64,000 nucleotides of DNA, from contig CALVYD010000001.1 in the NCBI GenBank assembly GCA_944371995.1, forward strand, positions 1 to 64,000. The letters are read 5' to 3'. Each line of letters opens with the position of its first letter. Within the stretch, counting starts at the first letter, position 1. This stretch comes from an uncultured Bacilli bacterium. GTDB lineage: Bacteria > Bacillota_I > Bacilli_A > RF39 > UBA660. The notes below the pieces were generated by a model that saw nothing but the letters and a program-made list of their open reading frames with translations, was not told the DNA's origin and did no database searches. Position numbers and translations under genes: made by a program. Shown here in pieces: positions 8,060 through 42,837 of this stretch.

Positions 8060-8134
8060 TGGAGCGGATGAGGGAAATCGAATCCCCGTCACAGCCTTGG
8101 CAAGGCCGTATTCTAACCACTAAACTACATCCGC
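8060..8134 (-). tRNA. tRNA-Gly (anticodon GCC)
   Basis: Full cloverleaf on the minus strand. The acceptor GCGGATG pairs with CATCCGC, the anticodon loop is TTGCCAA, and the T-loop is TTCGATT. The discriminator is T and CCA is encoded. It is 180 bases from the gene at 8315 and faces away from it. Confidence 0.95.
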
Positions 8135-8145
8135 ATGGAGCGTAT

Positions 8146-8217
8146 AGAGAAGAAGTCGAATAACTTTTCTCATACCAATAAGTTAGGTAGTAATAACTAC
8201 TAACTAATAAAATTATA
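8146..8217 (-). promoter_or_regulatory. probable tRNA-Gly promoter and hairpin-containing leader
   Basis: A TATAAT hexamer on the minus strand at 8212-8217 would start a transcript near 8205 that reads into tRNA-Gly. The leader can form an AGTTAG/CTAACT-type hairpin (about 8181-8206) and a second GAGAA/TTCTC hairpin (about 8146-8172). No good -35 box is visible. Confidence 0.35.
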
Positions 8218-8314
8218 TCACAACATTTACATTTTGAAACAAAAAATGCCCAATTTTACACTAAAATTATGAATTTCTTTAAGAATGTGTTATAATTGTA
8301 TCAGGAGGTAGAAA

Positions 8315-8935
8315 ATGGAAAACATTAATACAAACTTAGGTAAAAATTTTGATGTATCAAAATTATATATTGGTATTTACGAATCAAAAGATGGTGAAAG
8401 AATTGGACTATTCAAAAAAGATAGCATTCATTCAACTATAGATGAAGAACGTTCATATCAATTTTATAAAGATATATTGAGCGATTATTATGTGGCAATG
8501 AGTTTAGATTCTCAAGGAAATGACAGAAAAGCACAATATAGTGTTATGACTGGCGATCCTGAAGAAAAAGCAAATTGGAGGGGAATAGTAGGAACAGCTA
8601 ATCTTCAAGATTTATTAGCAGTTCCACATACAAATGCTTCAATGGGAGAAATAGATAGAGGATTTGGTCTTATTGAATTATCAAGTGCTATTCCAAATTT
8701 AAAAGCAAGTTCATCTTTAGTTGAAATGGTTGAAGCATTAATTAGTTTTTATTCTAAAATAAATTTAAAAGATGAAGTTGTTAAAGAATTAACTGAAAAT
8801 TTAAAATCAGTTCCTACATATTTTGAGAACAAAAACGAAAAAATGCCAACATTCTTTAATGCTAGTGCTTTAGAACTTAATGAAATTGATATGTCAAATA
8901 TACCTGAAGATTTTAATACTATAAAGCATCGTTAA
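8315..8935 (+). CDS. unknown 206-residue protein
   Basis: I do not recognise this protein. It is soluble, with no membrane segment and no known catalytic motif. Visible features are an N-terminal alpha/beta stretch (VSKLYIGIYESKDGERIGLF), a mid-section with WRGIVGTANLQDLLAVP and a helical C-terminal third. The start is well supported: an AGGAGGT sequence six bases before the ATG and a TATAAT hexamer at 8291-8296. It lies between tRNA-Gly and the hairpin array of the mobilizable element, so it may be either cargo or a host gene. No terminator follows directly; the first T-run terminator on this strand is at 9216-9238. Confidence 0.6.
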   Translation: MENINTNLGKNFDVSKLYIGIYESKDGERIGLFKKDSIHSTIDEERSYQFYKDILSDYYVAMSLDSQGNDRKAQYSVMTGDPEEKANWRGIVGTANLQDLLAVPHTNASMGEIDRGFGLIELSSAIPNLKASSSLVEMVEALISFYSKINLKDEVVKELTENLKSVPTYFENKNEKMPTFFNASALELNEIDMSNIPEDFNTIKHR

Positions 8936-8964
8936 AATTGAATTCAATAAGAAAAAGAAAAATC

Positions 8965-9236
8965 AAGTCGTGGCACGTTTCCGTTTGCGATAGCAAATGA
9001 AAGTGGCGATAGACTTTTAGGGTTTATTTTCATTATGAAGTTTTGAAAATAAATAATTGCAATTTATTGCAATTCAAAAAAAACATAATTATTGCTTGAA
9101 CGATTAGTTCTTGCTTAATTATGTTTTAGGGTTTCAAAAGGGAATATTCCCTTTGCACACCTATTGGCTCTGCCAATAGAGAAGTGTGTTTTATCTATTG
9201 GAAATAGATATTACCGACAAGCGAATGCTTGTCTTT

Positions 9237-9238
<2 letters not shown>
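8965..9238 (+). other. non-coding array of about seven hairpins beside the relaxase gene
   Basis: This gap contains successive inverted repeats: 8965-9016 (AAGTC/GACTT outer stem with an inner GTTTGC/GCAAAT stem and GATA loop), 9022-9052 (TTTATTTTC/GAAAATAAA), 9081-9126 (AAACATAATTA/TAATTATGTTT), the palindrome AAAGGGAATATTCCCTTT at 9137-9154, 9156-9188 (CACAC and CTATTGGC arms), 9192-9210 and 9216-9233. TTTTAGGGTTT occurs twice (9015-9025, 9124-9134), each time between hairpins. Only the last hairpin has a T run, on the plus strand, so any RNA would be read rightward and stop near 9238. It could be a structured RNA, an oriT or both. Confidence 0.55.
9216..9238 (+). terminator. plus-strand intrinsic terminator
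   Basis: GACAAGC/GCTTGTC stem with GAAT loop followed by TTTTT on the plus strand. The relaxase gene converges on it, but on the minus strand there is no T run. Confidence 0.7.
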
Positions 9239-12345
<3,107 letters not shown>

Positions 12346-12368
12346 TCATCAACTCCTTTTCTAACAAA

Positions 12369-12414
12369 AAGAGGTGTCAAAAGTATTAAGTGCTTAATAC
12401 TACTGACACCTCTT
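12369..12414 (-). terminator. attenuator-type hairpin in the recombinase leader
   Basis: An 11-bp outer stem (12369-12379 with 12404-12414) and a 9-bp inner stem (12382-12390 with 12393-12401) are separated by a 2-by-2 internal loop. On the minus strand the structure ends in CTCTTTTTG, and the recombinase ribosome site follows it. It overlaps the last codons of the leader peptide, which is the layout of a translation-coupled attenuator. Confidence 0.75.
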
Positions 12415-12459
12415 AAAATCTAATTTAGAATAATATTTGCTTTTAAACTTGAATCTCAT
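12400..12459 (-). CDS. 19-residue basic leader peptide upstream of the recombinase
   Basis: The short frame MRFKFKSKYYSKLDFKRCQ starts eight bases after AGGGGG and ends inside the 5' arm of the attenuator hairpin. It has seven Lys/Arg residues and four aromatics. Ribosome position on this frame could decide whether the hairpin forms, as with leader peptides of ribosome-targeting antibiotic resistance genes. I do not recognise the peptide itself. Confidence 0.55.
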   Translation of the reverse strand: MRFKFKSKYYSKLDFKRCQ

Positions 12460-12503
12460 ACTATTTAACCCCCTTAAATAGATATAAGTTTTCTTGGTTG
12501 AAT

Positions 12504-12531
12504 ATTCTATCACAAAATTAAGAAATGTCAA
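12504..12531 (-). promoter_or_regulatory. promoter of the leader peptide and recombinase operon
   Basis: On the minus strand a perfect -35 TTGACA (12526-12531) is separated by 16 bases from TAGAAT (12504-12509). Transcription would begin near 12497 and run through the leader peptide. Confidence 0.8.
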
Positions 12532-12540
12532 ATATTTGGC

Positions 12541-12816
12541 TTAAAAATGGCTTTTAATGTAGGTTTCAAAGTCTTTAAACTTAATTTTCTCATCATAACC
12601 ATTAACAAATATGTCATCACATTCATCAAACATTAAATAATCAATATTATTAACTTTAATAATATGTGGCATTACATAGGCAATATTTGTTTCTTTAATG
12701 CTTTTGATATTTCCATTTGTGAAAGTAGGTTTAGCACAAGCAAACTTACAAATCATTTCAACCTTTCTTTTTAGTTCTAAACTTATTTCTAATTCTTTAG
12801 TTTCTATTGTTAACAT
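12541..12816 (-). CDS. small unknown protein upstream of the recombinase
   Basis: A 91-residue soluble protein beginning MLTIETKELEISLELKRKV. The frame can be opened 11 codons further upstream only with a TTG that has no ribosome site, so the internal ATG was chosen; its own Shine-Dalgarno sequence (GTGAGAG) is weak. It is rich in acidic and aromatic residues and contains Cys residues in MICKFACAKP. No family is recognised. Its stop codon lies just before the recombinase promoter. It could be a regulator carried by the element or a host gene at its edge. Confidence 0.5.
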   Translation of the reverse strand: MLTIETKELEISLELKRKVEMICKFACAKPTFTNGNIKSIKETNIAYVMPHIIKVNNIDYLMFDECDDIFVNGYDEKIKFKDFETYIKSHF

Positions 12817-12846
12817 ATAATCACTCTCACTTTCTTTCTTAAATAA

Positions 12847-12872
12847 CAAAAAAACTAACTATTTCTAGTTAG
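12847..12872 (-). terminator. terminator of the tRNA-Cys transcript
   Basis: CTAACTA/TAGTTAG stem with a 4-base loop, followed on the minus strand by seven T residues. It lies directly downstream of tRNA-Cys. Confidence 0.75.
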
Positions 12873-12917
12873 CATTTATTACTCTCGAAGTCTATTAGTT
12901 CGAGTTTCCTATCATAT

Positions 12918-12991
12918 TGGAGGGGCCTACCGGATTTGAACCGGTGATCAGGGTGTTGCAGACCCACGCCTTACCACTTGGCTAAAGCCCC
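12918..12991 (-). tRNA. tRNA-Cys (anticodon GCA)
   Basis: Cloverleaf on the minus strand. The acceptor GGGGCTT pairs with AGGCCCC, the anticodon loop is CTGCAAC, the T-arm is CCGGTTCAAATCCGG, the discriminator is T and CCA is encoded. Pair 27-43 is a T-T mismatch. Confidence 0.93.
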
Positions 12992-36195: not shown

Positions 36196-36426
36196 CTCTT
36201 AACAAAAAACGAGCTTCATCCAAAGGACGAAAACTCGTGGTACCACCTTATTTTATAGAATTAAAAACTCTATCTCAACATCGTAACGTGATGAACGGAT
36301 ATTTCTTACTACTAGTTCAGAAACTCTGCTCCACTGCTACCTTCAAAATAGTTCATCAGCTATTTTCACCAACCATAGCCTCTCTAAAGACTCTCCATTT
36401 TTACTCCTCAGTATCATCGCATCTAC
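36196..36426 (-). promoter_or_regulatory. T-box leader, apparent Val specifier (GTA)
   Basis: Read on the minus strand, the leader has a GGAGAG-type Stem I region, a T-box core AAGGTGGTACCACG (36236-36249) and a terminator (36209-36238 stem with TTTTTT at 36204-36209). In Stem I the sequence GAAGGTAGCAGTGGA matches the usual specifier region; the three bases in the specifier place are GTA (36338-36340), a Val codon. Uncharged tRNA-Val would pair there and with the T-box bulge, stopping terminator formation. The downstream genes are two valyl-tRNA synthetases, which agrees. Confidence 0.92.
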
Positions 36427-41672: not shown

Positions 41673-41749
41673 TGGTCGGGAAGACAGGATTTGAACCTGC
41701 AACCCCTTGGTCCCAAACCAAGTGCTCTACCAAGTTGAGCCACTTCCCG
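41673..41749 (-). tRNA. tRNA-Pro (anticodon TGG)
   Basis: Minus-strand cloverleaf with CGGGAAG/CTTCCCG acceptor, anticodon loop TTTGGGA, CAGGTTCAAATCCTG T-arm and encoded CCA. Last tRNA of the operon. Confidence 0.95.
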
Positions 41750-41754
41750 AAACA

Positions 41755-41831
41755 TGGTGCGCTCGAAGGGATTCGAACCCCTGACCTTTTGGTTCGTAGC
41801 CAAACACTCTATCCAACTGAGCTACGAGCGC
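41755..41831 (-). tRNA. tRNA-Arg (anticodon ACG)
   Basis: GCGCTCG acceptor, anticodon loop CTACGAA (A34 to be edited to inosine), T-arm GGGGTTCGAATCCC and encoded CCA. Confidence 0.95.
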
Positions 41832-41872
41832 AGTACGTAACCAATTTATATAAAACTAAGTTATTAACAAAA

Positions 41873-41948
41873 TGGTGGCTCCAGCGGGAATCGAACCAGC
41901 GACACAGGGATTTTCAGTCCCTTGCTCTACCGACTGAGCTATGAAGCC
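41873..41948 (-). tRNA. tRNA-Phe (anticodon GAA)
   Basis: GGCTTCA acceptor, anticodon loop CTGAAAA, T-arm GCTGGTTCGATTCCCGC region, and encoded CCA. Confidence 0.94.
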
Positions 41949-41951
41949 ATA

Positions 41952-42028
41952 TGGCGGTCTCAACGGGACTCGAACCCGCGATCTTCTGCGTGACAGGCAG
42001 ACGTGTTAACCAGCTGCACCATGAGACC
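41952..42028 (-). tRNA. tRNA-Asp (anticodon GTC)
   Basis: GGTCTCA acceptor pairs with TGAGACC, anticodon loop CTGTCAC, GCGGGTTCGAGTCCCG T-arm and CCA encoded. Confidence 0.95.
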
Positions 42029-42032
42029 AAAT

Positions 42033-42109
42033 TGGTTGCGGGAGAAGGATTTGAACCTCCGGCCTCAGGGTTATGAGCCCTGCGAGCTACCGAACTGCTC
42101 CATCCCGCG
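42033..42109 (-). tRNA. initiator tRNA-fMet (anticodon CAT)
   Basis: CGCGGGA/TCCCGCA acceptor with the C1-A72 mismatch that marks initiator tRNA, anticodon loop CTCATAA, and encoded CCA. Confidence 0.95.
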
Positions 42110-42115
42110 ATATAA

Positions 42116-42208
42116 TGGCGGAGGAAAAGGGATTCGAACCCCTGCGCCGCTCGCACGACCTCCCGGTTTTCAAGACCGGTCCCTTCAACCAGACTTGGGT
42201 ATTCCTCC
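42116..42208 (-). tRNA. tRNA-Ser (anticodon TGA)
   Basis: Class II tRNA with a long variable arm. GGAGGAA acceptor, anticodon loop CTTGAAA, and CCA encoded. First gene of the second operon. Confidence 0.94.
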
Positions 42209-42236
42209 AAAAACGTCTTTTTCAGACGACAAAATG

Positions 42237-42265
42237 ATTATAACAAAACATTTTCACTATGTCAA
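42237..42265 (-). promoter_or_regulatory. promoter of the Ser-fMet-Asp-Phe-Arg-Pro tRNA operon
   Basis: Perfect -35 TTGACA (42260-42265) and perfect -10 TATAAT (42237-42242), 17 bases apart, on the minus strand. A CGTCT/AGACG leader hairpin lies between the start and tRNA-Ser. Confidence 0.9.
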
Positions 42266-42294
42266 CACTTTTTAAAAAACTAGAACATAGTTTA

Positions 42295-42323
42295 TAAAAA
42301 AACTCATCAGTAACTAATGAGTA
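42295..42323 (-). terminator. terminator of the first tRNA operon
   Basis: ACTCAT/ATGAGT stem with a 9-base loop and seven T residues on the minus strand, just after tRNA-Leu and before the next promoter. Confidence 0.8.
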
Positions 42324-42333
42324 ATTATTAAAA

Positions 42334-42422
42334 TGGTGCCTAAGGCCGGACTTGAACCGGCACGAGGGTTGAATCTCGCAGGATTTTAAGTCCTGTGCGT
42401 CTACCAATTCCGCCACTCAGGC
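42334..42422 (-). tRNA. tRNA-Leu (anticodon TAA)
   Basis: Class II tRNA with a long variable arm, GCCTGAG acceptor, anticodon loop CTTAAAA and encoded CCA. Last gene of the first tRNA operon. Confidence 0.94.
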
Positions 42423-42425
42423 AAC

Positions 42426-42501
42426 TGGTGATCTGTATGAGATTCGAACTCATGACCCTTTGATTAAAAGTCAAATGCTCTACCGACTGAGCTAACAGAT
42501 C
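42426..42501 (-). tRNA. tRNA-Lys (anticodon TTT)
   Basis: GATCTGT/ACAGATC acceptor, anticodon loop CTTTTAA, ATGAGTTCGAATCTCAT T-arm and encoded CCA. Confidence 0.95.
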
Positions 42502-42510
42502 ATATAATAA

Positions 42511-42585
42511 TGGCTGCCTCGGTTAGATTCGAACTAACGCATGTCAGAGTCAAAGTCTGATGCCTTACCACTTGGCTACGAGGCA
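42511..42585 (-). tRNA. tRNA-Gln (anticodon TTG)
   Basis: TGCCTCG acceptor, anticodon loop CTTTGAC, GTTAGTTCGAATCTAAC T-arm and encoded CCA. Confidence 0.95.
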
Positions 42586-42591
42586 ATACAG

Positions 42592-42675
42592 TGGTGGAGA
42601 GGAATGGATTCGAACCATTGAACCCGAAGGAACAGATTTACAGTCTGTCGCGTTTAGCCTCTTCGCTACCTCTCC
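42592..42675 (-). tRNA. tRNA-Tyr (anticodon GTA)
   Basis: Class II tRNA with GGAGAGG/CCTCTCC acceptor, anticodon loop CTGTAAA, variable arm CCTTCGGGTT region and CCA encoded. Confidence 0.95.
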
Positions 42676-42683
42676 AAAAAAAA

Positions 42684-42759
<76 letters not shown>

Positions 42760-42760
42760 A

Positions 42761-42837
42761 TGGTGGGCGATATAGGACTCGAACCTGTGACCCCCTGCTT
42801 GTAAGGCAGGTGCTCTAACCAACTGAGCTAATCGCCC
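42761..42837 (-). tRNA. tRNA-Val (anticodon TAC)
   Basis: GGGCGAT/ATCGCCC acceptor, anticodon loop CTTACAA, CAGGTTCGAGTCCT T-arm and encoded CCA. First tRNA of the first operon and the only tRNA-Val in the window. Its anticodon UAC matches the GTA specifier proposed for the T-box at 36196. Confidence 0.95.

Follow-up and report, generated by a model that had tools for sequence, protein, structure and literature searches.

The window, a stretch of 64,000 nucleotides, comes from an uncultured Bacilli bacterium (GCA_944371995.1, contig CALVYD010000001.1; UBA660, RF39) and carries an integrative mobilizable element (IME) between two tRNA genes (Table 1). Homology to near-identical elements ends at the 3' end of the tRNA-Cys gene and at the 5' end of the tRNA-Gly gene, and CTCCA is found at both junctions. 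Moreover, three genomes of the same genus hold the empty site, CTCCA-T-GCGG, in which tRNA-Cys and tRNA-Gly lie one base apart with no insertion. The recombinase, relaxase, defined ends, and empty site by which an IME is recognized are all present. The initial annotation spoke of a transposon, but the element is instead an IME that carries a MobV relaxase and lies at the 3' end of a tRNA gene. Relatives are inserted just past the CCA at the 3' ends of tRNA-Gly, -Thr, -Leu, -Cys, or tmRNA genes. In three of them (L016, L017, and L025), what seems to be the start of a further element (CACCAGATTGATAG..CTCGAACTTTTA) comes after the far end, which looks like tandem accretion at one tRNA. Elsewhere in the window we note a cluster of tRNA genes (41676-42837) and a T-box leader (36220-36426).

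Element genes and the supply of recombinase

The element encodes a MobV relaxase, a small conserved protein, a large serine recombinase, and a variable cargo gene. A search of viral contigs found no relative. The putative cargo slot is a segment (about 8300-8965) that is not common to near-identical elements, and we note within it a 206-amino-acid open reading frame (8315-8935) without a family match. The recombinase zinc ribbon (PF13408) gave a match below the cutoff, in addition to the domains listed in Table 1. Large serine integrases integrate alone, and excision normally requires a separate directionality factor. Thus, a leader in front of the recombinase would control recombinase supply and not excision itself, and the earlier suggestion that excision responds to ribosome stalling is unsupported. 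The 91-amino-acid protein is encoded upstream of both leader-bearing and leaderless recombinases and gave a confident predicted model (pLDDT 92). That this protein is a recombination directionality factor remains a guess, because the model matched no fold among solved PDB structures. Little is known about how small mobilizable elements control their serine integrases.

Table 1. Positions in the window of the element, its genes, and the parts of the recombinase leader
Feature	Position	Strand	Basis or remark
Integrative mobilizable element, ~4.8 kb, between tRNA-Cys and tRNA-Gly	8136..12917		Homology ends, empty sites
tRNA-Gly	8060-8134		
tRNA-Cys	12918-12991		
MobV-family relaxase	9237..10493	-	PF01076 E 1e-29; NF041497 MobV above cutoff
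Large serine recombinase, 622 aa	10474..12342	-	PF00239 and PF07508 above cutoff; phrog_95 integrase E 7e-106
Small conserved protein, ~91 aa, likely start ATG 12816	12541..12816	-	Between tRNA and leader
Promoter TTGACA - 16 nt - TAGAAT, extended -10 (TGA)	12504..12531	-	11/12 matches
Promoter boxes TTGACA; TAGAAT	12531-12526; 12509-12504	-	
Hairpin P1 (CTATTTAA-GGGGG-TTAAATAG), leader Shine-Dalgarno in loop	12461..12481	-	Folding and relatives
GGGGG ribosome site of leader, in P1 loop	12473-12469	-	
Leader ORF, 19 codons, MRFKFKSKYYSKLDFKRCQ	12400..12459	-	ATG 12459; frame openness in relatives
Leader stop TAG, within P2 5' arm	12402-12400	-	
Hairpin P2, intrinsic terminator stem-loop, 46 nt	12369..12414	-	Folding, covariation, model R1
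T run (T5) of terminator	12366..12370	-	Sequence
Recombinase Shine-Dalgarno AAGGAG	12353..12358	-	By sequence

Conservation, spread, and loss of the leader

A promoter, a leader ORF, and an intrinsic terminator precede the recombinase gene in that order, all on the minus strand. The initial annotation had placed here a near-consensus promoter and a 19-codon frame with a ribosome site, ending inside a 46-base hairpin with a T run ahead of the recombinase, and both the coordinates and the order were right. P2 alone folds at -25 kcal/mol, and the whole leader folds at -37.8 kcal/mol against -21.0 +/- 3.2 kcal/mol for shuffled sequences (z -5.2; 0 of 200 shuffles as good). No Rfam family reached its gathering score in the leader region, and a plasmid search by similarity to the leader DNA returned only chance matches. 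By itself, the promoter-like match is not beyond chance, as 17 such matches were found where about 21 were expected in this A+T-rich region. Thus, relatives had to decide the promoter question, and a promoter scoring at least 9/12 was present at the equivalent place in 43 of 45 distinct relatives.

Relatives were gathered by a recombinase scan of a genome collection, which gave 34 loci; many more came when 193 genomes from the family were searched. At most loci, the order of parts before the recombinase is kept while their sequences differ. A hairpin (of at least -11 kcal/mol strength) with a T run lies within 180 nt upstream of the recombinase start at 82 of the 118 loci with a placeable start, a count that takes in near-copies and a few unrelated terminators. 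Across relatives, P2 has 17 consensus pairs, 14 of which covary with changes on both sides. Double-change cells numbered 90 against 32 +/- 5.5 in shuffled alignments, pairing was 93% compared with at most 66% when the alignment was slid, and on every measure of P2 covariation the real alignment beat each of the 500 shuffles and each slid version. The hairpin in the window scored 62.3 bits (E 2.4e-11) with R1, a covariance model of P2 that was built from this hairpin among others. The P1 stems are unrelated in sequence between clades (CTATTTAA/TTAAATAG, AATCATAA/TTATGATT, and GTAT.CTCT/GGAGGTAC), and each clade's P1 places the Shine-Dalgarno sequence in the loop or the 3' arm. The P1 hairpins that hold this sequence in relatives had a mean z of -1.56, with 33 of 45 below -1.

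Whether the leader frame is conserved in relatives had been set beforehand as a test that could refute the attenuator, and its outcome favored the attenuator. The leader start codon was picked from the ribosome site alone, and only then was the frame scored for openness as far as the hairpin. The chosen frame was open in 37 of 42 distinct leaders, and the other two frames were open in 3/42 and 2/42. In an earlier, smaller set, the frame was open in 27 of 33 leaders where dinucleotide shuffles gave 7.0 +/- 2.3. Judged from these sequences, the leader frame is not due to chance. Of the 37 open frames, 34 have their stop codon within the hairpin and 3 have it farther on. Entry of the frame into the hairpin is spread over the three phases, 16/15/15 among 46 distinct peptides and 18/8/11 among the 37 open frames. 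The peptides end variously (KRCQ, KRSQRY, RGVKGISLN, EESVVFRLY, and others), and pN/pS for the leader is 0.54, a value from compared pairs that are not independent. Since all three entry phases are used and the peptides differ, the position of the ribosome is what appears conserved rather than the peptide. The peptide itself seems weakly constrained, and what is kept appears to be a ribosome that enters the hairpin and stops within it. One subclade (L057, L063, L074, and L157) has the P2 terminator and a short MFLxG-like first frame but no frame that reaches the hairpin, and its leader is either decayed or works in another way.

R1 matched 52 of 117 genomes of the family and 90 of 288 genomes of the order, and in the order, too, all matching genomes belonged to that family. 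In a class-wide draw, 19 of 19 R1-positive genomes fell in that family as well. In the genomes searched, the leader is restricted to a single bacterial family. A complete leader also precedes an unrelated gene of 207 to 210 amino acids at two loci (L165 and L169), in two genomes and with different neighbors; the L165 gene has a weak match to a phage transcriptional activator (phrog_248, E 0.0017). The cassette is therefore portable. Conversely, the whole cassette is absent from some related recombinase loci (L019 to L024, L030, L033, and L044) and is therefore dispensable. L044 is a close relative whose recombinase is 86% identical, nests among leader-bearing elements on the recombinase tree, and sits behind the small-protein gene. 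In the last 60 nt before the start of this recombinase, the promoter, the leader, and most of the terminator are gone, apparently through a natural deletion bounded by two TTTGACA repeats, one at the -35 box and the other in P2. Counts of leader gain and loss on the tree were set aside, as automatic labels missed several leader-bearing loci.

Proposed ribosome occlusion and rival explanations

How might the leader act? It is fairly likely, in our view, that a ribosome-occlusion transcription attenuator, in effect a translation gate, controls the serine recombinase of the element. The recombinase would probably be made only if a ribosome trails RNA polymerase closely enough to block the terminator. 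Transcription would start near 12497, and if no ribosome followed, P2 would fold as RNA polymerase reached the T run, ending transcription before the recombinase. A ribosome that loaded on the leader at the Shine-Dalgarno sequence within P1 and advanced into the final third of the frame, or as far as its stop codon, would cover the 5' arm of P2, the terminator would be blocked, and recombinase mRNA would be made. With occlusion by a trailing ribosome, output would follow how promptly ribosomes start and whether they keep pace with RNA polymerase. Termination at P2 in vivo, translation of the leader, and an effect of this translation on readthrough are all inferred; on translation, the open frames and the pN/pS ratio are indirect signs.

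Pairing between the 5' arm of P2 and the leader RNA upstream of it was not stronger than with shuffled sequence (mean z +0.4, n=45), and thus an antiterminator of the kind modeled for ermK, vmlR, or bmrCD was not found. When a ribosome footprint was placed on the leader in a folding model, footprints at codons 1 to 10 left P2 intact and those from codon 13 to the stop broke it. Direct occlusion is the simplest mechanism on this model, in which a leader translated to its end in step with the polymerase would prevent termination. Translation of a gene in E. coli represses almost completely an intrinsic terminator that lies a few bases beyond it (PMC4824070), and a ribosome near the stop codon of the B. 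subtilis tlrB leader has been proposed to interfere with the terminator (PMC6851288). In B. subtilis, however, RNA polymerase outruns ribosomes (PMC13323073), and therefore the leader ribosome may come too late and a polymerase pause may be needed. The subclade in which no frame reaches P2 and the related recombinases that lack the cassette also weigh against the gate.

P1 could serve as a pause hairpin, and this favors an alternative in which the geometry of occlusion is equal while leader translation is constant and polymerase pausing or nucleotide supply varies. Such a sensor of polymerase speed would be of the E. coli pyrBI type, in which the leader frame likewise enters the terminator and no antiterminator takes part. 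The long U tract of that type was not seen in the leader, and we regard the alternative as unlikely. A supply of particular charged tRNAs is very improbable as the signal. Tyrosine is mildly in excess (77 against 58.5 expected), but most other residues are near the expectation from composition, the peptides have no run of regulatory codons, and three identical residues occur in a row in only 2 of 46. On these grounds this codon-starvation reading, in which a leader of the trp or his type would carry a run of codons for one amino acid, was rejected. Finally, P2 might be a constitutive terminator, with the promoter yielding an abundant RNA of about 130 nt, either a small RNA or the mRNA of a tiny peptide, and with the recombinase expressed by leak-through. 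A strong promoter does stand directly before a strong terminator in leader-bearing relatives. A frame kept open with its stop inside the hairpin in any phase would be unexpected of a noncoding RNA, however, peptides that differ among lineages would be unexpected of a functional peptide, and P2 sits between the promoter and the gene. We find this explanation decidedly improbable.

The initial annotation took the layout for that of antibiotic-inducible leaders. In that reading, ribosomes slowed or stalled by a ribosome-targeting drug late in the leader block P2, and expression of the recombinase rises, in the manner of tetracycline with Tn916 or tylosin with tlrB. The same parts make up the tet(M) leader of Tn916 and the tlrB leader of B. 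subtilis (PMC9154091 and PMC6851288), and the motif [RK]x[RK] is overrepresented among the first eight residues, occurring in 19 of 46 leaders against 8.1 in shuffles. Relative to ordinary N termini, taken from open frames in the fetched loci, the enrichment is about 2-fold (31/160, or 8.9 expected), and shared leader ancestry and A-rich early codons may explain the excess. Against an arrest near the peptide end, the motif was found at the very C terminus in 1 of 46 peptides and within the last eight residues in 4 of 46, which is rarer than in shuffles (9.6). Moreover, early stalls leave P2 intact in the folding model, where a ribosome held at an [RK]x[RK] this close to the N terminus would favor termination and a stall at any of codons 1 to 10 should keep the recombinase off. 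Inducible leaders have either an antiterminator, as in ermK, vmlR, and bmrCD, or a C-terminal arrest motif, as in tlrB, and neither was found here; the element in the window also lacks a recognized resistance gene. Antibiotic induction is possible but not indicated, and a drug-stalling switch seems unlikely to us. What survives of the earlier interpretation is a leader-peptide attenuator before the recombinase of a mobile element, without the antibiotic-stalling layout, the excision, or the transposon.

Ribosome occlusion could also be read more broadly, as a speculative extension that we find plausible but would not bet on. There, the leader would be a previously undescribed, portable RNA cassette with at least 46 distinct versions within a single family of gut bacteria. 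Any open leader frame would do, whatever its phase, since the hairpin would provide each entering frame with a stop codon. The cassette would gauge whether the ribosome keeps up with RNA polymerase, license the recombinase only in a particular translation state, and also control at least one unrelated gene. The data point to a simple RNA switch that ribosome traffic would set, that sits directly on the recombinase, and that recurs throughout a large group of uncultured gut bacteria. A link between integration or mobility of the element and translation, ribosome-targeting drugs included, becomes testable. Moreover, with a peptide that can vary freely and no antiterminator found, the leader offers a clean natural setting in which to ask about ribosome-polymerase coupling in the Bacilli, the group in which runaway transcription is reported.

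Relation to known leaders and elements

Several antibiotic-inducible leaders are among the closest known systems. The tet(M) leader of Tn916 (orf12) likewise combines a leader frame with transcription attenuation on a Gram-positive mobile element, and its attenuation is relieved by translation inhibitors (PMC9154091). The Tn916 leader precedes a resistance gene, whereas the present leader directly precedes a recombinase. B. subtilis tlrB (yxjB) also has a short leader ORF with a terminator behind it, but it differs in the RYR arrest motif at the C terminus of its peptide, and it has in addition a mapped NusG-dependent pause and a hairpin that sequesters the Shine-Dalgarno sequence of the gene (PMC6851288). 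Leader ORFs with an intrinsic terminator before the gene are likewise found in vmlR, bmrCD, and ermK (PMC9226507, PMC4191407, and PMC5418344), which, unlike the present leaders, are modeled with an antiterminator.

Attenuation without an antiterminator has its own precedent. At E. coli pyrBI, the leader frame overlaps the terminator, and the spacing of ribosome and polymerase decides. The present leader differs in that no U-rich pause tract was seen, in that a recombinase is controlled, and in belonging to a different phylum. As for the element, IMEs with a serine integrase and a MobV relaxase are alike in gene content and size, but the present family, unlike those, integrates at the 3' CCA end of many tRNA and tmRNA genes. 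The proposed attenuator belongs to a known kind of control, ribosome-mediated attenuation.
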